From Cokeromyces recurvatus (taxonomy: Eukaryota > Mucoromycota > Mucoromycetes > Mucorales > Mucoraceae), in NCBI RefSeq assembly GCF_025118155.1, contig NW_026251405.1, positions 478,947 through 542,946 of the forward strand: DNA of 64,000 bases. The letters run 5' to 3'. This document shows positions 38,701 to 59,867 of this stretch, piece after piece (position 1 is the stretch's first letter; the number at the start of each line of letters is the position of its first letter). The translations under genes were made by a program, and so were the position numbers. The notes below the pieces were generated by a model, which did no database searches, was not told where the DNA came from, and saw only the letters and a list, made by a program, of their open reading frames with translations.

Positions 38701-41226
38701 TGTTTTTGCTTATCTGATAAACGCCTTTGTTTCCCTTCACCTTTTTCTATGTTTGTCTATACATTGTCCTTTTGCGTCACTTTCTTTTTTTTTTTTTTTG
38801 AAAATATAACGATCAAAGAGTTTATATGAAATTATACTTTTACGATTTGACATCAAATAAATTTCATAATAATTCAACGATCACCAAAATAAGATAGTCA
38901 GAGTTAACTATCCTTTATTTAATTCCAGATTTAAAGTACCTGGACAAATAATATAAAAGAAGGGATTTCAACTTATTTATATACTCCTTCATGATTTATA
39001 AATTTAAGGGCACGTCAAACAACAATTATTAGAAGAAATATTCTACTCATAGGTTTAATTCTAATTAAAACTTACGAGTCTCACAGTCAAGATAGACTAC
39101 TAATATTGGTGTTAGATTGGTGAAAGAGGAAAGAAAGAAAAAATTTTGTGAGAATTTTTTATAGTGTTTTATTTAAAAGAAAAAATAAAATATAACAATT
39201 AATGGGTCTTTTTTTTTCGAAGTGACCAGCTTCTTTTATAGTTTTTAACAAGCATCTTTTATCGATTCCTTGATTCTATATTAGAAATATGGAATTTAAA
39301 GGAAATGATGATAATCAATCTATATTTGACATCTAATGTACAATCTTGATTTAGCGTGCAATATTATTCGATACAATTTGTTTCTTCAGGCATTATGCCT
39401 TGATTCACTAAGTAATTTTCTTTTTGCTAGCATTTACTACAATGTTCTAAGATTAGTCTGATAAAATAACAAGTAATAGTTGTTATCAATCTGATGTTGA
39501 TGATGATATTATTAGTTGAATATTATACATAGCTATTATAATTAGATATGCTTAATTATGTAGTGTAATATTTCTTGTAAAATATCAAATAAAAATAATA
39601 TAAAGACAAAAGAAGGTCAACGAGAGTGAACAATAGTTCTAAAGTCAATGATTTTATTTGTGGATTTAAATTGATAGGGCATTTATAAGAATTGTTAAAG
39701 AAGTGTGAGATAAGATGCGAATCAGAAAAGTATTAGTTACTACTTAATAAGATATGTTATAGATAATGAAGTGTTAGAAGTCTTTAATATTATTTGATGA
39801 AGTGGATCAATAGAGTTTCGGGGGAATCTAAATAAAATTCCTTGAATAATTTTCTGATCCTCATGTTTAATCAAGAAACATGATACTATAAGTCAACTCA
39901 TGACATGTAGTATCTTTTATATGTATCAAGTTTTGAAAATTATTGTTGATAAGGTAGAGATAAAAAAGAAAGCAGAATAAATCTGTGAAAATTTTGTACA
40001 AGGCTTTTATTATTAATTGAATAAAAATAAAAATTAATAAAAATAAAAAATTGAATCCCTCAAAATAAGTGCAAAATGAATCCTTATTTATATCTTGTGG
40101 AGAACAGGTTACTTTGCGACAGGAACAGAATGAAGATATCTTGAAAGAAGAATATTTCCCATAAAATGATTAAAGTTATTTTGTTTGAGCTTTCTAGTCT
40201 TTGCCCTGATTGAGAATTAATCTTAGTTAACTCATTCTAATAAAAATTAAATTATTCATGCTCGATCTAGTCGACTATTTTTCTTGGAACTAAATAACGA
40301 GGTCTCGTTTTTTCATACTTGTGAATGATATAGGGAAGATATTTTTTGATATAGATTTCTTTGTATTCTATTCATTCTTCAATGTACTACTTGAATGAAT
40401 ATCAATATATTTTATAGTGTATAATGTATAGATAGTATATGATTATATTTATAAATTAGTATATTAGTATATTAAATAATAATGTGGATATATAACTAAT
40501 AGATACAATCTATAATTCATATATCTTTATCATTCATAACTCTTTACACTATTGTTTGGTTTATCATTATCTCGTAATGTTAGTATTTATTATAATATTA
40601 TTTTTCTTATCACAAGAATGTCTTATAAACTGAAATCAAGTAATATTATACGCATAAAGTATACAACTAATGACTATAATATCATTCGGTCCTTCATGAC
40701 TCTGATCTGTATACTATAAGATATTATGTAATACATCATTATATACACAACAATTATATTATTGAAGCTTATCAGTTGTGATATAAATAACGATAAATGA
40801 TATCATCAACACAAATAACATGTATTAAGCTACTTCTATATTGAATAAGCTTTGTATAGATTTTATTTTTCAATATGATGTATCATAAACTACCTTTAGA
40901 AAACATTAAGTAAAGCATAAAGTATATCTCTTTCGTTATCTTTTTGCACTCAAAACAATTACAAGATAAATCTTAAGTTGCTCTTTAATTCGTTCTCTAT
41001 TTCTTTTTTTAACTGGTTGATATCCTTAGCACACAATATTCGATATAATAATTTACAAGAGCCAACTCATTGAAAAGATTACAAACTCGATATAACGACA
41101 ATTAAAAAATATATAAAATATAAAGTAACAATTAAAAGACAGAAGGTAAATTTCATTGGTTGAGTCACGTGATTTTTAAATTTATTTATAGTTATATTTT
41201 AATTAAAAATTTTACAATCAACAGCT
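38701..41226. other. Gene-poor AT-rich region
   Basis: About 2.5 kb of very AT-rich DNA. No open frame has family features on either strand and I see no repeats with clear boundaries. It probably consists of decayed sequence. Confidence 0.45.
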
Positions 41227-41298
41227 TCTTCGGTAGTATAGTGGTGAGTATCCCCGCCTGTCACGCGGGAGACCGGGGTTCAATTCCCCGCCGGAGAG
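41227..41298 (+). tRNA. tRNA-Asp(GTC)
   Basis: A 72-base cloverleaf without intron. The acceptor stem TCTTCGG pairs with CCGGAGA (one T-G pair), followed by discriminator G. The anticodon arm is CCCGC-CTGTCAC-GCGGG with anticodon GTC, and the T arm is CCGGG-GTTCAAT-TCCCCG-like with a good B box. The D arm is of the TAGTATAGTGG type usual for eukaryotic tRNA-Asp. CCA is not encoded, as expected for a nuclear gene. Confidence 0.96.
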
Positions 41299-41879
41299 TT
41301 CTTTTTTTATTTTTTAAGTGTCGTGCTCTTTATTCGGAGACATAGTAGCTTCATTTAGTTTGACTATAAATTTTTATATTTTATATCAGTTGCGTCTAAA
41401 AATATTATATTTAGGCTGTTTTGTCGTATCGTGACAGTAGTGTCGCAAGAAAGATTTTTATTTGCTTTAATAGTCTATTATAATTCTTATAAAAATTATT
41501 ACAATATGATTTTTATTGAGTAAAAAGATAATATTTTATTATTTTTGTTAACTTGATTAATTATAAGTCAATTCTAATAGAATACAAATTTTTATAACTT
41601 GGAAATAAAATAAAGTACGATAGTAGTTTGTTGTGCCATCATTTTTTATTGTGATTAATACCTATTAATAAAGTATTACTTAATACTAACAGTAATAATA
41701 GAATATAGAAGGATGTAGAATATCAACAATATAGTTTGAAGAAGAAAGACTTGTAAGTATAATTTTAGGTGGCGCTTAATAAAATTCTATATAACTGCTA
41801 TATCAAAGTACAACACTTTTATTTTTATTACCTATCAGGATGACGGCTGTTGTTCTATGAAAAATAGATAGTTCACATG

Positions 41880-42064: not shown

Positions 42065-44009
42065 TCAACAAATTGCTTGATTTTCGTCGTCATATTTATC
42101 ATCAGCATCAAAATTACAACGAAGCTTATGCACAATACCTGCTCCAAAGTCTGCTTCCATTCTAATTTCTGTCAAACCAAAATACATTCTATTATAAAAT
42201 ATAAGTTAAATAATTTTATTAAGCGATTTTTAATAATATTAATTTACCTCACTGTATAGGATATTCTTTCTCCTAGAATAACATTAGGTAATTCAGGTAT
42301 TGGTACTGAGATAGCAGCTACTTGTTTAACTCCTGACTCATAAACGTATCTTGGTTCTAGTCTATCATCTGTAGCATACAAAACAATATCTGTCGCTCCA
42401 ATTGTTCCATAATAAACAAACATGGTTTCTCGAATACAATGATCTATTGGTAATAAATTACCCTTTCTTACAAATACAAGAAACCTTGATGTACAACGAA
42501 TACTTCCATCAGGACGTATTACGCGAGATGAAGGAGGATCTAAACTTTCGTCAAACGGTAAGCCAGCATTGATACCATATGTTCGTCGAGAAATACGAGA
42601 CGTTACAGTCCGAGGATTAAGTCCAAAATAGACAGCACCTCTTACAACAGCTAGTGCAGCTCTTGGGGGACATAAGATTTGATTAACTCTAGTGGAAAAT
42701 GCTTCTTGTACTCGATGATACAAATAATTTGAAGAACCAAAACCACCAACAAGAAATATACAAGAAAGTTCCTTATTGGGGATTGAGTTATACTGCTTTT
42801 CCAATAATGAAATCTATTTACGTTAAATTGTTAAAGAGGGAAAATAGTCACCGTGTTTTATACTTTACTACACGATCTACAATAGGATCAAACACCTTTT
42901 TCTTTAATTCATCTGCTCTAAGTACCATTATACCTTCATCAAGACCACTATCCTTTTCCATATCAATTTCATCTAAATTAATAGAAAAGGGTAAAGTCAA
43001 ATATTGGTCATCTAATCCATCGAATTCTGGTTTTATATTATTAACAAACTGATCCATCAAACTATTAATAACAATAGCAGGTAGACTTCTAACTTGTTGA
43101 CCTAACCTTTCTTCTAATAAATCTTTAAACTTTTTATCCAAAAATATACTTCCACAGCTTTCGCCAATACCCTTTGTCACTTCTTTGAGTCGATTTGTAT
43201 TTTGTATCCCATCATTAATAATTTCAAACACAATTAAATCAACTGTTCCGCCCCCAGCATCACAGATTAATATGCGGTCTCCTTTTTTCAGGTTGGCTTG
43301 ATCGCACATTCTCTCGCAATAAAGAGCAGCTGCTTCTGGTTCTGATATAAGCATTAGCCTATCTTCTGAATCCTCCTTTCGAACCAAGCCAGCCTTTACA
43401 GCGGCTTTTCTCATAGAATACTTTGCTAAATCTGACCACATCGCGGGTACTGTTAAGCAATATCGAAAATGATTTGGATCATAATTTTTGGCAAATCCTT
43501 TGCTAAGCTCTTCTAAAACATATTCATGAAGTGCTTTTAAATAATCAGCAATAATATCTACGTTAGACCTATTTTTTTTTAAGTTAATTAAGATATAATA
43601 TCTTCTTTTTTTTTTTTCTTACCGATAATTTTCTGCTATGCCCCTTTGTAAGGATTCATCTAAATTGAGTTTAAAGTTTGATAAAATTATATTTTCCTTA
43701 GCAGCTTGTGGTTTAAGCATCATCTTCTTGGCGCCATGTCCCCATTCGATCATTACAATTGGATTAGATCGTTTATAGACTAACAAAGTATGTGTTTTTG
43801 GATAAAAGTCTCCACCTTTTTGCGGCCTTGATAATTTCATGTTATATTTGATAAAAAAAAACCACATATAAATCACTTTTTTGTTACCATTTTTGTATAT
43901 CAAAAATTTCAGGGGTTGTCGTTATATGAGTGAAAGCATACGAAGCTCCAGAAAAAGTTGTACCAAAATCATAAGCAATAACAAGCTTGTAATTGTCTTT
44001 GCTGTTCAT
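42065..44009 (-). CDS. HSPA12-like Hsp70-family ATPase (copy 1)
   Basis: Five exons (44009-43888, 43826-43623, 43568-42852, 42813-42248, 42188-42065). The actin-like ATPase fold shows the phosphate-1 motif YDFGTTFSG, the phosphate-2 motif ICDAGGGTVDLIVF and the adenosine motif FLVGGFGSSNYLYHR. Between them lie RLMLISEPEAAALYCERMCD and GIGESCGSIFLD. The pattern is that of the HSPA12A/B group, which keeps the nucleotide-binding fold but has no canonical Hsp70 substrate-binding domain. The C-terminus ends in a beta-rich region and a Asp/Glu-rich tail. In fungi, members of this family are multiplied and their roles are mostly unknown; ATPase activity is inferred. It stands head-to-head with a paralogue at 44425. 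Confidence 0.9.
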
Positions 44010-44089
44010 TATTAATGCAATTGTTTAAATGAAGAAAGAATAATGTGTATAAAAAACGAGCCTAAATGCATATTAAATGATTTAAACAC

Positions 44090-44131
<42 letters not shown>

Positions 44132-44424
44132 AGCAGTAAATTGATCTAGGACCATGCGTACAGATACAAAAGAAAAGAAGATAAAATAAAATAAACAACG
44201 TGTTTTTATCAATGTGCTATATCCAAGATGTATTATAAATAATACAATACACTTCTATAACTATTGCAACACTATGGATGGATATTATTATAATAATAAA
44301 TTTTAAAAAAAGGCTTATAATAATACAAAAATATTATTGTAGCACCTTGTATAGCCCATAAACGTTGTACCATTCCTTTTTTTTTTCTTTTTCTTCTTCT
44401 TTTTTTATAATATAAACTGGGTTT
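44010..44424. promoter_or_regulatory. Bidirectional promoter region of the HSPA12-like pair
   Basis: These 415 bases separate the two divergent start codons, so both promoters must lie here. It contains a T32 tract at about 44093-44126 and a pyrimidine-rich stretch at 44378-44406 just upstream of the plus-strand start. No specific factor site can be named from sequence alone. Confidence 0.5.
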
Positions 44425-46204
44425 ATGGTTACTCCATTTTCTGATAAAGACTATCCCATTGTCATTGGAATTGACTTTGGTAAATTCAATTTATTAATAT
44501 GAAACTAGAAAGTATATATGTATATATATATTATTTTTTATTTTTAGGCACGACCTTTTCAGGTGCATCTTATGCTTACATGAACGATAACGAAATTACA
44601 GACATTAGTAAATGGTAATTAGCAATAAGAAAAATATATGTGTATACGTAAACTAACTTTTAAACAAAATATTTATTTACTCTTCTGTTAGGCCCGGACA
44701 ACCTGATTATAGTTATCCAAAAGTAATGTATATTATGTATATATACTTACATATATCTGTGTATAACAATTAAATAATATACTCTTTATTTGTAAAATAG
44801 TGCCCAACTGTTTGCGTAAGTACTTATTAGACTTCTTTTATTATTACTGTGAAATTCATAAATATACATTTGCCTTTTATAGTTATATAATAGAGATAAT
44901 AATGTAAGCTCTCTACTCTTCATGCATATATGTTAAGGACTAGAGAAATTTAACTGGATTAAATAGAAACTAATTCAATGGGGTAGATCAGCTAAATCTG
45001 GGAAATCTAAATTCCCTAATATTACTATTTTGCAGCAATTTAAGCTATATCTGGATGATAGTCTTGAAGGAATTGTAAGGCAATTACCATTAGATTTAAC
45101 AGCCACTGATATTATTGCAGGTAAATAGTATACACATGTATAAAAAACTATATGTATGTATACATACATACATACATAAAGAATCTCATATTATCAATCA
45201 CAAAGATTATTTGCAAAAATTTTATGCATGTGTAAAAACGGATATGACTAAAAAAGGATTTCATAAGGATTTTGAAAAGCAAGCTCGATTTTGCTTAACA
45301 GTATGTTGTATAAATTTTTTGTTTAGAGAATTTTAAAGTACTAAAAAAAAATGTATATTAGGTTCCAGCCATGTGGTCAGACAAATCAAAGCAAATTATG
45401 AGAGATGCAGCCTTGAAGGCAGGTATTATAGATGCTAGTGATCACAGAGATCGACTCATGTTAATCTCTGAACCTGAGGCAGCTGCACTTTATTGTGAGA
45501 AGACATGTGATAAATTCAATATGCAGCATGGTGATGAATTTATGATATGTGATGCTGGAGGGGGTACTGTTGACTTGATTGTATTTCGAGTTGACATTGA
45601 TACATCAGGTCGACGTAAATTTAGAGAAAGTACAAAAGGCATTGGTAAATCTTGTGGATCAACATTTATAGATCGAAATTTTAGAAAACTTTTAAGAAAA
45701 AAATTAAAAAAAGTGATTCGAAGGTCGCCTAATGGAATAGTCAAAATTCCTGAGGCCCCTCTCGATCATATGATGGATATTTTTGTCGGTAATTATATAC
45801 ATATTGTATAAGTAAATATTAGTTTAAAATGCTAAGTCTTCAAGCATGTGTAGATAATTTAAAGCCATTATTTGATGGAACAGATGATCTTTATTCAGAT
45901 ATATCTATGGGGTTCGATCTTGTTACCAAAACTGAACCTTCTATTGGTTTAGATGAAGGCAACATGACATTTACAAAAGAAGAACTCAAGAACCATGTAT
46001 TTGATCCTGTTGTTCAAGAAGTAGTTCATCTCTGCCGTGAACTAAAAAAGGATACGACCAACTTAAAAGCCATTTTTATGGTAGGTGGTTTTGGTTCATC
46101 CGCTTATTTATATAATCAAATGGAAAAAGAATTCTTGTCTGAAAAAATTCGAATTGTGCAGCCTGATAGACCAGGTAAGATAAATGAAAAATAGTAATAC
46201 AACA

Positions 46205-47848: not shown

Positions 47849-47920
47849 GGGCTTCTCCGGGAATCGAACCCGGGACCTCTCGCACCCTAAGCGAGAATTA
47901 TACCACTAAACCAAGAAGCC
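47849..47920 (-). tRNA. tRNA-Pro(AGG)
   Basis: Read on the minus strand it starts GGCTTCTTGGTTTAGTGGTA. The acceptor stem GGCTTCT pairs with AGAAGCC with discriminator C. The anticodon arm CTCGC-TTAGGGT-GCGAG gives anticodon AGG, and the T arm carries GGTTCGATTCC. No intron and no encoded CCA. 72 bases. Confidence 0.96.
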
Positions 47921-50910: not shown

Positions 50911-52165
50911 TCATTGTTGCTTTACAGCCTGTTCATTTTGTTGCTGGATTGTTAACAATCTATTTCTTTCAGCCTCTCTCATTTTCATTAACGTTATTGA
51001 TTCATAGTCATTATCTGATAATTTAGATGGAATAGAGTTCTAATGTTAACATGTTAGTTTTTCATTCTTTTATATTTTTAAACTTTTTAATACCTGAAAA
51101 GCGGGTATATTACTCAAGTTTTTGAAAAAAGAAGATTGTGATACAATTGAAAATAAAGGTTTTCCAGTTGCCGTAGTTAATCTACTATGCGTACCATATA
51201 AAGCAGCCTGAGCTTCCTTTTTTAATTCTTCTGCTTTAATCATTTTTTCAACTAATGCAGGTGGTTTGCCTGTTGCCCAATAAATACTTTCAAATTTTGA
51301 TAAAGTAGGATCTGTATCTTTTTTAGTAATAATACTATACTAGATAAACACATAAATATTTTCACAAGTCGAAAATAATAAATAAATATGTATACTCACA
51401 GCATCCACTACTGTTTTAAATATAACAATTGCACTTCCTTTCTTTTTTTCTGATAATGCTAGTGAATCCACTTCAGCAATTGAATTTAATAAATCATAAA
51501 GATCTTGCTCTGAAAAATCATATTTTTTACGCTTCCATTTAAACTTTACTGCTCCTAATTCATTTTCTGCTGATGTTTCTTTTTGGATAATAATAAAAAA
51601 AAAAGAAAAAGTTAACAAAAAAAGAACAATACATACATCTTTATTATGCATTTTACCTGGCTCAGTAGGCTTATTGTTTTCGGTTGCCCAATTTTCTTGT
51701 CTTCTTTTAGCACCTTCTTCACGTAAACGAGCTAATTCTGCTTCATATTGTGCTTTGGCTTGATCCTGGTCGGTCTTGGCTCTCTTTGCTTCCTTTTCTC
51801 GTCTTTCTAAATCTTCTTGAGCTTGTCTTCTCTTGGAATCCATCTCTTTCTTTTTTTTCAATTGTTCTTGTCTTGCACGATGTCGTTGATCATATTCACT
51901 TCTCTTTTTTGGATCTAACAATAAATCTTGTGCTTGTGTTAAAGCATGAAATAGTTTGGCTATTATAAAAAATATAAATTCATTAGAAGTGAGTTTTATT
52001 AATAATCTATTTTTTTTTTATGTTTTGTCATGTACCTGCATCTGGACTGGGATTTTTATCAGGATGAACCTTTAAAGCCTTTCTACGATAAGCATTTTTA
52101 ATTTCTTTTTCAGATGCCGTAATTTCAACACCTAAAAGTTCATAGTAATTTGTTTCCTCCTCCAT
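50911..52165 (-). CDS. CWF23: DNAJC17/Cwf23-type J-domain spliceosome factor
   Basis: Starts [20 protein letters not shown] and has a complete J domain with the HPD motif in [12 protein letters not shown], then [21 protein letters not shown] long charged helix follows ([20 protein letters not shown] onward), then an RRM-like segment ([51 protein letters not shown]) and a C-terminal helical tail ending [11 protein letters not shown] domain, charged helix and RRM in this order define DNAJC17 in animals and Cwf23 in yeasts, which help Prp43-dependent spliceosome disassembly. Five exons are implied: the first holds the J-domain start up to about 52037, the second begins near 51961, and further introns lie near 51580-51657, 51345-51400 and 51040-51092. 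It is divergent from the snoRNA host gene at 52.3 kb. Confidence 0.88.
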
Positions 52166-52375
52166 TATGTAATTTACTTCACAAGAAAAAGTAAATAAAA
52201 TAAACCAAAGTAAACTGAGTTCAAAAAATGTTAAGAAAGGAAACTAAAATGGTGTGACGGTTAAATAAGATGAGGAAAAAAAATTTTTTTTTTACTAAAC
52301 TATTTAAAGTTGACATATTTTTCTTCTTTTTATTAAAATCCATATTCTTTCTTTCTTTTATATACAATAAAAAAG
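52166..52375. promoter_or_regulatory. Probable shared promoter of DNAJC17 and snoRNA host gene
   Basis: The DNAJC17 start codon is at 52165 (minus) and the first putative donor of the snoRNA host transcript is at 52376 (plus). The host's first exon and both promoters must lie in this 210-base stretch or partly inside it. It contains T and A tracts (52277-52293). No defined factor site is claimed. Confidence 0.4.
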
Positions 52376-52406
52376 GTTAGTTATACTATACATTTTATAT
52401 GATAAA

Positions 52407-52505
52407 AGTATCATTAGTTGTGCAAAAGATGTTTTTTGTCAAACAAACTAGAGTTTCTGATTTATTGATGTGAATTTCTTTCACTGATGCTAAATTAATG
52501 ATACT
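52407..52505 (+). ncRNA. snR78: Box C/D snoRNA, snR78-like (25S Um2421; second guide Am2220)
   Basis: An external stem of AGTATCATTA (52407-52416) and TAATGATACT (52496-52505) encloses the RNA. Box D' is CTGA at 52457-52460 and box D is CTGA at 52484-52487. A C'-like box TTGATGTGA lies at 52465. Box C is imperfect (AAGATGT near 52427). The guide before D' (CAAACTAGAG) pairs with 25S ACUCUAGUUUG; the fifth base from D' faces the U of GACU, Um2421 in yeast numbering. The guide before D (TGAATTTCTT) pairs with AAGAAAUUCA, placing A2220 opposite the fifth base. In yeast these two sites use different snoRNAs (snR78, snR47). Confidence 0.75.
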
Positions 52506-52662
52506 TGTTATATTTTATTTTAATGAATAGTCATTTTAATTTTTTTTTTATAATGTATATAATAGATTTTATTTTATGTTTAAAATAAGTGTAAAATATA
52601 TTGAATAAAAGAAAAAAGGTAAATAAATCCATCAATCTATAAAAAAGATGAAAAAACAAAAA

Positions 52663-52760
52663 GAAAAGATTTAAGTGATGATTCGACTTTTTTAAAGTTG
52701 GAATTACCGTCTGAAACTTCTGTAGAAATCAAATTGGCTGTTTACTGATTAAATCTTTTT
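52663..52760 (+). ncRNA. snR77: Box C/D snoRNA, snR77-like (18S Um578)
   Basis: Box C GTGATGA (52675-52681), box D' CTGA (52711-52714) and box D CTGA (52745-52748) are all canonical. The terminal stem is perfect: AAAAGATTTAA before box C and TTAAATCTTTT after box D. The D' guide GTTGGAATTACCG pairs with the universal 18S segment CGGUAAUUCCAGC (13 pairs, one G-U). The fifth base upstream of D' is A, facing the U after CGG, which is Um578 in yeast (position equivalent to E. coli U531). It sits inside the intron 52619-52832. Confidence 0.93.
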
Positions 52761-52944
52761 TTTTTGTTTTCTTCATTTGAAATATAATTTATATTCTGGG
52801 GAAAAAAGACTAATCCATTTTTATTTTGCTAGGGTTCAAATATATTCGTATAATTTGTGTTCCTTTATTTTAACTGTTATGGAAACGCCACTTTTTAAAA
52901 GGTAATATTTGATTTCCATTCATTTCTCTTTTCCTCGGTATTTT

Positions 52945-53051
52945 TCATTTTTAAAAAAATGATGATGCTTAGATGACGAGTCTGACGAGTCATTCAATGT
53001 TGATAAAACTCTTTAATTCCATTCATGCTTTTCTGAAAAGAATGAAAATAT
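52945..53051 (+). ncRNA. snR75: Box C/D snoRNA, snR75-like (25S Gm2288)
   Basis: Box C ATGATGA (52959-52965), D' CTGA (52982-52985), C'-like TGTTGATAA and D CTGA (53033-53036). An outer stem TATTTTTCATT pairs with AATGAAAATA. The D' guide TTAGATGACGAG is complementary to 25S CUCGUCAUCUAA, and the fifth base upstream of D' faces G of CCUCG, Gm2288 in yeast numbering. A second guide before D (TCCATTCATGC) is complementary over 11 bases to GCAUGAAUGGA, only about 20 bases downstream in the same 25S segment. It lies inside the intron 52902-53099. Confidence 0.9.
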
Positions 53052-53157
53052 AGAATGGAGAAGAAAATGATGGAAAATAATTTTTATTTTTTTTGACAGT
53101 TGCTAATTTAATTATTATTAGACGTTTCCTTTCCCCTTTCTTTTTTCCTTCAAGAAA

Positions 53158-53187
53158 ATAAATAGGACTCTGCTTTGTCCTATTTTT
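53158..53187 (+). other. Perfect stem-loop in a host-gene exon
   Basis: AAATAGGAC (53160-53168) and GTCCTATTT (53177-53185) form a nine-pair stem with an eight-base loop TCTGCTTT. It lies in the predicted exon 53100-53196 between two snoRNA-bearing introns. It lacks C/D boxes. It could be a structural or processing element, or a transcript feature without function. Confidence 0.6.
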
Positions 53188-53235
53188 CATTTGATGGTAA
53201 GTTTTCTATTTACTATCTTTTCAAAAAAGAAAAAG

Positions 53236-53325
53236 TAGATATTTTTCTGATGAATTTATAAAACAATTGACAAGCATATGTCTGATTTTTATGAAGAGTT
53301 TTTTAAATGCCTGAAATTTATCTTT
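53236..53325 (+). ncRNA. snR74: Box C/D snoRNA, snR74-like (18S Am28)
   Basis: Box C CTGATGA (53247-53253), D' CTGA (53282-53285), C'-like TATGAAG and D CTGA (53311-53314). A partial terminal stem is formed by GATATTT before box C and AAATTTATC after box D. The D' guide GACAAGCATATG pairs over 12 bases with the 5' end of 18S (CAUAUGCUUGUC). The fifth base upstream of D' faces A28, methylated in yeast by snR74. It lies inside the intron 53197-53392. Confidence 0.92.
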
Positions 53326-53475
53326 CTTTTTCTTTTTTTATTCTAAATTCATATAATATAATTTTATTAACATTTATTTATCGTTATGATAGACTTAACA
53401 AGTTAAATTAAGAATGATTTTTCTTTACGTATAGAAATGTTATTAAGGTAAAATTCTTTATTATTATGATTCTTT

Positions 53476-53575
53476 TTTTTTTATTTAAATGATGATACCT
53501 AATATCACGACGGTCTTCATAAAAACCTTGATGAAAACGGCTTTTAGCCCCTACATACTGAAAATAAAAAAAAAA
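53476..53575 (+). ncRNA. snR73: Box C/D snoRNA, snR73-like (25S Cm2959)
   Basis: Box C ATGATGA (53489-53495), C' TTGATGA (53528-53534) and D CTGA (53558-53561). The terminal stem is TTTTTTTATTT before box C and AAATAAAAAAA after box D. The 5' guide TCACGACGGTCT pairs over 12 bases with 25S AGACCGUCGUGA in the peptidyl-transferase region. With a degenerate D' box CATA one base beyond the guide, the fifth base faces C2959, the yeast snR73 target. The D' box is weak, as is common. It lies inside the intron 53448-53643. Confidence 0.88.
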
Positions 53576-53660
53576 AAATCATAATTATTTAATGTGTATT
53601 CATTGGTAATTTTTACTAACATATTATTTTCCTTTCTCATTAGGTATGTGTACATAGTTT

Positions 53661-54366
53661 TCTCTTTTTTTTAAAAAAATAAATAAAATAAAATTTTCTT
53701 TGTCACTAAGCCACATTTTTATTTGTGAATTTTACGTTTTTTAACATGATACACTTTATAAAAAAGTAATTCATTTTTGAAGGAGCTTAATTCTAAAAGC
53801 AGTATTTTTTGAATTATTAAAATTAAAAGGGTAATAATATGGAGACAGTCTACGAAATATTTTATTGTAAAGACTGTTATATGTAGAAAATATATAACGA
53901 CATCATCATAAAAAAAAGAGCGTTTATTTGATGAGCATCCTTAAATTTCAAAAATTAATGAGAAATTTAATACAATCATTTATTTTTAATCCAAACTATT
54001 TTTTTTTTTTAAACGTCAAGCATATAGTTTAGTTAGTAAAACTAGATATACAAATATTATAAGGAGGAAAAAGATAGTAAAAGAGTCTATTATAAACATA
54101 AAACTGTTGATAATGTTATGCTCTTTACGACGAGACAACTATATTTCCAGTCGATTACTATAAAATTGAAACAGACGCTAATAGTTATATGAACTATGAT
54201 ATGCCTTTATTATCAATTTTTTAAAAATGGGAGAAAGGGAGGAAGAAGTGTGTCGCTCTTTTTGGTCTATACCTGTATTTACAAAAATTCTATTCAAGCT
54301 GTCTTGTCATAATATGTAAGTCGATAAAAAATCAAAGAGCAAAAAAGAAAAACTACAAAAAGAATT
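53661..54366. other. AT-rich spacer between snoRNA host gene and tRNA-Gly
   Basis: No open frame with family features. I looked for further C/D boxes with an snR72-type guide (25S A876 region) and found none. Confidence 0.45.
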
Positions 54367-54437
54367 TGCGCGGTCGGGGAATCGAACCCCGGCCCTTCGC
54401 GTGGCAGGCGAAGATTATACCACTTAACCAACCGCGC
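54367..54437 (-). tRNA. tRNA-Gly(GCC)
   Basis: Minus strand, 71 bases, starting GCGCGGTTGGTTAAGTGGTA. Acceptor stem GCGCGGT pairs with ACCGCGC, discriminator A. The anticodon arm TTCGC-CTGCCAC-GCGAA gives anticodon GCC. The T arm has GGTTCGATTCC. No intron. Confidence 0.96.
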
Positions 54438-55451: not shown

Positions 55452-57970
55452 ATGTCCATTCAATTAAACAAAGACCAAAGAGAATGCAAATGCTCAACTT
55501 GCTCTCAAAGTGAGTTGGGATATAGGGTTGTCCACAGACATACAGCCCGTATACATCAAGAAATTGATGAAGGTCTTGCAGATGCAAATGCAATTGAACA
55601 AAGTAAATAAAAACTATGCATTTCAAATGTTATAATTAATAAATGCAATAATGCTAACTTTTTTTTTTGTTATCGTGTTAAAGATGTTTATGATGCAAAT
55701 GATGATCTAATTTTTGAAGATAACAATGCCATTGATGCTATTGAATTAGAGGATATGGATTATCTAGAAGGAGAAGAAGATGTAGTTGAATGTATGTATT
55801 ACCTTTTAAAAAATAATATTGCTATGATAATCTTTATATAAATTATTTATGCTAACTTTTTTATTTATTTCATATATAGATGAAGCTAATGATAACTTTG
55901 CAACTAACGATACAAAGTTATTCAACATTAGTGAAAATGAAGCTTTACCTTACTTCATTATGATTTTCTTGACATTCTTCCAAGCCAATAATTTAACCAT
56001 TACGGCTACAGAAAGCTTGTTCAAGTTCATGAATGCTATACTTTTTCTACTTGGAATTAATTATGCATTCCCCTCTAAACTCCAAACAATTAAATCTAAA
56101 ATTTCTGCTAATTATGCTAGCAAGGGTATTTATTTTATTTATTTATTTATTTATTTTTTTTTACTAATACTAATTTCTCATTATAATAGATATCAAAAAA
56201 TATATTGTTTGTGAGAAGTGCAATGCAATTTATGTATACGAGGAAGTTATCGATAATTCGAATACAATTAAAAAATGCAGTAATAGAACACTTCCCTCGT
56301 ATGCTAATGGAATGAGAGCACGATGCAATCATCCATTAGTAGTTAAAAATGCTAGCAACGATTCGGTCAAACCAATCAAACGTTATGCGTACAACTCAGT
56401 AAAGGCAACTTTGATGAAGTTTTTCATGCGCCCTACTTTTGAGCAAAAAATTGAAGAATGGAGAAGTAAAACTGTAATGCCTGGAATGATGTTTGATATC
56501 TTCGATGGTCGATTTTTTAAGGAATTCAAGAAGGATGATGAAGACGAACCATTTCTTCAAAAAGAAGGTTCATTAATGTTAAGTTTAAATGTTGACTGGT
56601 TTACTCCAACTCAAGGAATGAAATATCACGTAGGTGCCATATATTTGATCATTAATAACCTTCCTCGTAACGAGAGGTTTAAAAAACAAAATATGATTCT
56701 TGTTGGCTTGATGCCTGGTCCTCGTGAAGCTGCTCTTTCGGAAATTAACCATTTCCTTCGACCTATGGTGGACGAGCTCCTTGAACTATATGATGGAATA
56801 ATTATACCTACATATATGGCTCCTAATGGAAGAATGATTCGCTGTGCTTTGGCTTCGGTTAACTGTGATTTACCCGCAGTTAAAAAAGTATGTGGCTTTA
56901 CAGCTATTAATTCCTTTGTTCCCTGTCACAAATGTGCAGATACCTTTCCAGCCCGTACAGATAATCCAGTCCAAAGATGTTTTTCTAATGTTGATTGTTC
57001 TTCTTGGCGTCTTCGAGACAGACATAGCAACTATGAACAGGCACTTTTGTGGAAAAATGCCAGTACAAAATTAGAACGACGAAATATTGAACAAAAATAT
57101 GGAGTCAGATGGAGTGAATTACATAGATTGCACTACTTTGATATTATACGTTGTAACATTATAGATGGTTTACATAATCTTTATCTTGGTACTGCTAAGA
57201 GAATGATTCAGCATTGGATTAAACCAAAAAGCAATGGACAGCATAATATCAGACCTTTTTTAACTAGCAATGATCTTGCCGAAATGGCTGAAGAGGCTAA
57301 AAATATAATAGTACCTCCAAGATTTACACCATTAAGCTCAAAAATTTCAGCAAACTTTTCGGATATGAAAGGTGACGAATTTAGATCTTGGATTCTGGTA
57401 TATTCACCAATTTTATTAAAAGGAAGATTAACTGGTGAACATATGATTAATTGGATGCGATTTGTCGATGCAAATCGTATTCTTGCCTCTCCATCTATCA
57501 CTCATTACGAGGTTAACCAAGCCCATAACCTTCTGGTTGAATTTGTTAGAACAAATGTTATGCTTTATGGTGAAGATTTTATCACACCAAATATGCATTT
57601 TCATTTGCATATTCATCAAACGATTGAAGACTTTGGACCTCTATATTCTACTTGGCTATATAGTTTCGAACGAACTAATGGTGATATCAAGGCAATTGAT
57701 ATTAACTATAAAGAAGGTTTAGAGTTCACGTATATGGAAAAATACATCCAACAAGTACATATGCAGGATTATATCAACATTTTACCTAGTGTAATTTCTT
57801 CTAATCCTGTTATGGTTGTTATGATTATAGTCGTCTTTACAACTAAGTTAATAGAAATAAACCATCATTTATTACATAATAAAGAGGTTATTCAAATAAA
57901 ACTAGTGTATTGTACTTCACAGCATTATATATACATTCTATATTCAGTTTTAATAACCGGTCATTGTTAG
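55452..57970 (+). mobile_element. Tnp2/CACTA (CMC)-type transposase gene with introns
   Basis: Four exons (55452-55602, 55684-55791, 55880-56125, 56190-57970). The N-terminus has a Cys-rich start CKCSTCSQSELGYRVVHRHT, then an acidic region, a zinc-ribbon-like CEKCNAIYVYEE with later CS and RCNHP ligands, and a catalytic region with LMLSLNVDWFTPTQGMKYHV, GAIYLIINNLPRNERFKKQN, VGLMPGPREAA and HYFDIIRCNIIDGLHNLYLG. This wording is typical of Tnp2-like DDE transposases of fungi (Plavaka group of the CMC superfamily). Candidate acidic residues are D in NVDWF and D in IDGLHNLYLG. The frame ends at 57970, 28 bases before the target duplication of a Tc1 element. The last about 50 codons (VMVVMIIVVFTTKLIEINHH) do not look like the domain, so the native C-terminus may be lost. 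No element ends were identified. Confidence 0.8.
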
Positions 57971-58545: not shown

Positions 58546-59867
58546 ATGGATCAATTTATACATGAAGATGGAAAAGGCAAATCATTCAACGAAGAAGGGG
58601 ATGAAGTTGAAGTACTTCAGATGGAGGTCGACGATCCTGATTATCCTATTGCAGATATTACAAGTTATGGGGAATATTTAGATTTAAAGCCTCCCAAAAA
58701 ACCTCATAAGGCTAACAAAGTTGTATCCAAAGAGAAAAAACGGGTAGTAAATGAAGAGTCTCAAAACAACAAGAAAACGTATCGAAACTATAGAAAGGAA
58801 GAAATGGACTATTTCTTCTTCCTTGTAGGTGAGAAGGGTATGTCCGTTCGTGGGCAGCTAAACAAATAGGTGTTCCTGCTAGTACAGCTACTTCATGATA
58901 CAAAAAAAGTCTTGAGGATCCAGACGAACTTGTCAACAAAGGAAAACCCGGAAGCGGAAGGCCTGTGGGAAGACCTCCTATCTTGAACGATGCCCATCGC
59001 GAGTACCTTATCAATTCGGTTGATGAGGATGATTCAGGCATGACCTTGGATCAAATGAGGGATAGATTAACCAGGAACTTTGAAGGACTTGAGATAAAAA
59101 AATCTGCCTTCTATACTTTTGTAAAGGAAAAATGCAGAATAAGCTGTAAGAAATCTTATTTTTATCCTGAAGATAGAAACAGCCCTGAAAAGATTGAGGA
59201 GAGATACAAGTGGGTTAAAAACCTGTTGGGTAATACTGATATTGATTATCAATTCAACTGTATTTTTATTGACGAAGCAGGATTTCATATCAATATGAAA
59301 CGCTTTTTTTCTTGGTCTCGTGTCGGTAATCGCGCTATTGTTAAGACACCAAAAACCAAGGCTAAAATGACAACTATTTTGGGCGCTATTTCACCTTATG
59401 GAGTTATAAACGTAAAGGTTAGAACACCAAAAGTAACAGCATCCAAGAAAAGAAAGCTTGGAAAGGAGAAAGAAGAAAGAAACAGTTCAATTGGCACAGT
59501 TATAGGCCATTGCTTCAATTTCATCGCCGATACTATTGATATCTTGGATCAGTACGAGGAATTTAAAGGGAATTATCTTGTTATGGATAATGTCCCAATC
59601 CACAAGCACCAGGATATAAAGAGCTATATCGAAAGTCGCGGTTACTTTTGTTTGTATCTGCCCCCATACTCTCCTGAACTGAACCCAATTGAACAGTTTT
59701 GGTCCGTCTGTAAAAGCAAACTGAAGAGAGAGCCACTCTTAGAAAGCGAAACCCTTACCAGTCGCATAAGGGATGCATGCAATAGCGTACTTTTAAGTGA
59801 TTTGAGAGGGTTCTGCAGATATTCGATCCGGAAGTTTGATGATTGCTTGGAACGTAAACCACTTTAA
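58546..59867 (+). pseudogene. Tc1/mariner transposase (DD34E), one frameshift and one stop
   Basis: Starts at the ATG of MDQFIHEDGKGKSF with an acidic N-terminus, then a helix-turn-helix (AAKQIGVPASTATS) and a linker rich in Gly and Pro (KGKPGSGRPVGRPPILND). The catalytic core has D in CIFIDEAGFHIN, D in YLVMDNVPIHKH and E in SPELNPIEQFW, with 34 residues between the second D and E (DD34E). All three acidic residues are intact. Two lesions lie in the DNA-binding part: the frame shifts at the GGG run 58852-58854, and a TGA at 58896-58898 sits where the context (ATS-x-YKKSLEDP) suggests a Trp codon, so G to A. From the ATG at 58965 the rest is open for 300 codons. The element is probably non-autonomous now. 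Confidence 0.9.

Follow-up and report, generated by a model that had tools for sequence, protein, structure and literature searches.

The snoRNA locus of Cokeromyces recurvatus is located on the plus strand at 52.42–53.56 kb of the window, the whole stretch of 64,000 nucleotides that was analysed, and is composed of five box C/D snoRNAs in the order snR78, snR77, snR75, snR74 and snR73. The GC content at 52001–54000 is 23%. The predicted host of the snoRNAs is divergent from a DnaJ-domain gene on the minus strand, whose first exon (52037–52165) matches Pfam DnaJ (E 1.3e-14) and whose start at 52165 is 210 bp from the first predicted host donor. Further along the plus strand, two transposase-like ORFs were identified at 56174–57970 (Transposase_21/tnp2, E 4.3e-12) and 58899–59867 (DDE_3, E 7.8e-25). 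The window also encodes tRNA-Asp(GTC) (41226–41299), tRNA-Pro(AGG) (47849–47920) and tRNA-Gly(GCC) (54367–54437). Hsp70-like gene pieces on both strands at 42244–46194 appear by eye to be a diverged pair, and the one piece that was scanned scored 19.9 bits with Pfam HSP70, just under the 20.6-bit cut-off. The window forms the end of its contig in this 28.05-Mb genome.

Box C (RUGAUGA, with variants in two) and box D (CUGA), which define box C/D snoRNAs, are found across the set. The first snoRNA, snR78-like (52422–52489), has a degenerate box C (AAGATGT, 52426–52432), a D' box CTGA at 52457–52460 and a D box CTGA at 52484–52487, and is enclosed by an external 11-bp stem (52406–52416/52496–52506). 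The snR77-like snoRNA (52669–52757) features box C at 52675–52681, D' at 52711–52714 and D at 52745–52748, with a terminal stem of 11 bp (52664–52674/52749–52759). For snR75 (52957–53038) the C, D' and D boxes are located at 52959–52965, 52982–52985 and 53033–53036, and for the snR74/SNORD27-like snoRNA (53242–53318) at 53247–53253 (CTGATGA), 53282–53285 and 53311–53314. The final snoRNA, snR73-like (53487–53561), contains box C at 53489–53495, box D at 53558–53561 and a degenerate D', CATA, at 53518–53521. The earlier note described five C/D snoRNAs with canonical boxes, which holds for box D, as this is CTGA in all five; the full box C, RTGATGA, is found in only three, since snR74 and snR78 carry the variants given above.

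Covariance models from Rfam place four of the five snoRNAs, and in the expected order, though two of these scores fall below gathering. The highest score was for snR75 (Rfam snR75, 68.1 bits against a gathering of 40), which was the single match reported for this family in the 28-Mb genome. The snR77-like snoRNA also passed gathering with Afu_300 (43.4 bits), while snoR77Y (39.8 bits) was below gathering for the same RNA. SnR74 matched SNORD27 with 43.4 bits (E 1.1e-5, gathering 52) and snR78 matched its own family with 38.0 bits (E 0.0013, gathering 48), both below gathering. No significant Rfam family match was provided for snR73 at threshold, and this snoRNA is identified by its C and D boxes and a 12-bp guide.

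Guide pairing was carried out with segments of yeast rRNA in place of C. recurvatus rRNA. All five snoRNAs form duplexes of 12–15 bp with these segments, and by the box-plus-five rule each duplex is in register with a known yeast site. The fifth base upstream of D' is opposite 25S Um2421 for snR78, 18S Um578 for snR77, 25S Gm2288 for snR75 and 18S Am28 for snR74. The target register of snR73 depends on the letters chosen as D', so its 12-bp guide leads to 25S Cm2959 only if the non-canonical CATA at 53518 is the D' box, and one-base shifts lead to Cm2960 or Am2958. On the yeast rRNA segments, these are the same five targets that the earlier note had assigned. When the segments were compared with 19 modified yeast positions from PMC8307265 Table 1, all 19 fell on the right letter; four of these (578, 2258, 2421 and 2959) had been used to fix the numbering, and base 1 was the starting point for the first 18S segment. 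Within the window, an exact complement of at least 9 to the rRNA segments is found at four of 346 CTGA sites, all inside the cluster, a count from which snR73 is left out because its D' is not CTGA. In the shuffled-guide control (n=6920), 16 reached 9, 4 reached 10 and 1 reached 11, and because the segments were picked on account of the hypothesis, this control tests the place and not the choice of target.

A second 10-nt complement to 25S, CCATTCATGC, is located before box D of snR75 (53019–53028) and is present in the Rfam consensus as well. By the rule it would direct modification to G2307, which is absent among the sites in the passages of the PMC8307265 table, and it is perhaps an accessory pairing. 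A 32-base stretch of 25S had no match in the genome with up to 3 mismatches allowed; the rDNA is probably missing from the assembly or differs from this stretch at more than 3 positions. A genome search with a 15-mer complementary to the snR75 guide had a match in the snR75 gene only, which is uninformative on the rDNA because the 15-mer extends three letters into box D', and these letters are not expected in rRNA.

The degenerate box C of snR78 and the lack of a canonical D' in snR73 could mean that some of the five have decayed and no longer give a stable guide RNA, as might the score of snR78 (38.0 bits vs gathering 48) and the absence of an Rfam family at threshold for snR73. This is very unlikely, as both snoRNAs retain canonical D boxes, both have 12-bp guides that keep register with the known site (given CATA as the D' of snR73), and D' boxes are often degenerate in any case.

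Each of the five snoRNAs lies alone, as the earlier note had stated, within a GT...AG unit (155–214 nt), and these units are predicted to be introns on the plus strand. The snR78 host is predicted intron 1 (52376–52530, 155 nt, GTTAGT...AATAG), followed by intron 2 with snR77 (52619–52832, 214 nt), intron 3 with snR75 (52902–53099, 198 nt), intron 4 with snR74 (53197–53392, 196 nt, GTAAGT...GATAG) and intron 5 with snR73 (53448–53643, 196 nt). The four predicted non-coding exons between them are located at 52531–52618 (88 nt), 52833–52901 (69 nt), 53100–53196 (97 nt) and 53393–53447 (55 nt). The donors read AAG/GT in four units and ATG/GT in one. For comparison, four of four coding introns from two protein genes in the window, three in a glutamine synthetase gene, where the protein served to place them, and one in the DnaJ-domain gene, where the reading frame did, have an AG/GT donor and an AG acceptor. 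A YTRAY branch-point-like motif is found 18–31 nt upstream of the acceptor in four of the five units: TTAAT in unit 1 (31 nt), CTAAT in unit 2 (18 nt), TTAAC in unit 4 (21 nt) and CTAAC, within TACTAAC, in unit 5 (23 nt). Intron 3 exhibits no clear motif of this kind at a usable distance from its acceptor. The spacing from box D to the acceptor is 43–84 nt across the units.

The spliced host, taken as 52300–53760 with assumed ends, has no ATG ORF longer than 13 codons, and an ATG ORF of at least this length occurs in 92% of 500 single-base shuffles, which bears out the earlier claim of a transcript with no coding potential. Between snR75 and snR74, the predicted exon contains a 9-bp hairpin at 53160–53185 with the arms AAATAGGAC/GTCCTATTT and an 8-nt loop. 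In the three stretches folded (52373–52540, 53101–53196 and 53140–53196), this exon hairpin carries no AGNN loop; stems capped by AGNN are the motif of yeast Rnt1. A polycistron that is left unspliced and cut by an RNase III enzyme, on the S. cerevisiae model, would share its order with the yeast polycistron and could make use of this one hairpin, but it is extremely improbable given the separate GT...AG units of all five snoRNAs, branch-point-like motifs in four of them, a loop of 8 nt instead of the AGNN tetraloop of Rnt1, and the intronic clusters of R. oryzae described in passages of Luo et al. 2013 (PMC3596301). For the intronic arrangement, the four junctions listed in the earlier note (52618/52833, 52901/53100, 53196/53393 and 53447/53644) are correct, and the snR78 unit at 52376–52530, absent from that list, is added here.

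The S. cerevisiae snR78-snR72 polycistron, which is processed by Rat1p and RNase III according to the title of Qu et al. 1999, has the five common guides in an order identical to that of C. recurvatus. The yeast polycistron carries seven snoRNAs and is unspliced, whereas C. recurvatus has five that are predicted to be intronic. The identity of order was expected from the earlier note, and both the Rfam matches and the guides confirm it. In Luo et al. 2013 (PMC3596301), this set is cluster I (snR78-77-76-75-74-73-72), and the locus described here encodes five of its seven members, in order. With one snoRNA per predicted GT...AG intron and a host lacking a long ORF, the locus has the apparent organisation of the intronic form of cluster I. 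The same authors report three snoRNA cluster sequences in nearly all fungi analysed, with 323 of 460 analysed snoRNAs predicted intronic and 83 introns verified, and all intronic in Euascomycetes, Basidiomycota and Rhizopus oryzae. They also describe snR78, snR75 and snR72 as scattered in some Basidiomycota, so the order of cluster I is not universal.

The closest published case in these sources is cluster I of Rhizopus oryzae, which like C. recurvatus belongs to the order Mucorales, has intronic snoRNAs and has lost snR76 (PMC3596301); it belongs to another genus, and the comparison is with the published text. For another mucoralean, Lichtheimia corymbifera, eleven C/D snoRNAs are described as mainly conserved among basal fungi, in passages of PMC4133162 that give neither their names nor their arrangement. 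In Neurospora crassa, intronic snoRNA clusters with transcripts identified by RT-PCR are described in passages of Liu et al. 2009 (PMC2780460), with UHG-like non-coding hosts that, as here, carry C/D snoRNAs in introns. However, CD5 of N. crassa carries both snR78-type and snR72-type guides and a snR76 homologue, CD12, is present, while neither snR72 nor snR76 was found here. Candida likewise has a conserved cluster I with intronic members and a non-coding host, according to sections of PMC5033589, though exonic and intronic snoRNAs are mixed there, unlike the present set, whose five members are all predicted to be intronic.

At the cluster locus, both snR76 and snR72 are missing. The snR72-type pattern, TTCGATTAGTN{3,5}NTGA, had two matches in the genome and its reversed control pattern one; both matches (L003 and L004) were rejected, as they appear coding-like by eye and have no Rfam snoRNA match. 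The first version of a snR76-type pattern had 0 genome matches and its control 1, and a looser version had two matches (L005 and L006) and its control 0; these two were rejected as snR76 because there is no Rfam snoRNA match at either place and neither shows a complete snoRNA by eye. Because the patterns are narrow and were built on yeast rRNA, not that of C. recurvatus, their negatives do not prove absence. For the snR73 snoRNA, AGCCCCTA before box D was also considered as a snR72-like second guide and rejected, having about 7 contiguous pairs that are out of register for Am876; by-eye reasoning on 25S letters suggests that this pairing is likely chance. The pattern negatives fit the losses in the passages of Luo et al. 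2013 (PMC3596301), where R. oryzae has lost the snR76 intron and most species have lost that of snR72 from cluster I. We consider it doubtful that C. recurvatus, and perhaps the Mucorales at large, is without snR76 and snR72 guides altogether. If true, the sites that correspond to 25S Cm2197 and Am876 would either carry no methylation or depend on unrelated snoRNAs as guides.

The snoRNA anatomy, the guides, their order, the GT...AG units and the lack of coding capacity can be read directly from the DNA. The locus is very probably a non-coding spliced host with five intronic C/D snoRNAs, the version of fungal cluster I (snR78-snR72 in yeast) found in Cokeromyces, from which snR76 and snR72 are missing at this site. 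Splicing, debranching, exonuclease trimming and guided 2'-O-methylation are the established route for intronic snoRNAs, and from the sequence we infer transcription and these same steps at this locus. A UHG/gas5-like non-coding host gene would be transcribed by RNA polymerase II and then spliced, and each of the five excised introns would be debranched and trimmed by exonuclease to the C/D core, yielding one snoRNA. Each snoRNA would then guide fibrillarin to one rRNA ribose for 2'-O-methylation, with 25S Um2421, 18S Um578, 25S Gm2288, 18S Am28 and 25S Cm2959 as the proposed sites.

The earlier note held that the set and its order seem older than the split of these fungi while maturation changed, a view that the passages of Luo et al. 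2013 (PMC3596301) support. On that account the change in maturation was on the Saccharomyces side, where the unspliced form is put down to splice-site degeneration. Progressive intron loss has been described by Mitrovich et al. 2010, as cited in the text of PMC5033589. Since cluster I is widespread and intronic in R. oryzae in print, this evolutionary claim is already published; an intronic cluster I is already described for a mucoralean, and the interpretation is right in substance and not new. The literature search found no paper on both Cokeromyces and snoRNA, so the C. recurvatus locus seems undescribed in the literature searched. It is useful for annotation, because Rfam gathering scores alone recover just two of its five snoRNAs (snR75 and, through Afu_300, snR77). 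For the biology of the group, it leaves the view of the system unchanged and extends a well-described case to another genus of Mucorales: a snoRNA set that keeps its order across fungi, while in the Saccharomyces line its release has passed from splicing to cutting by RNase III.
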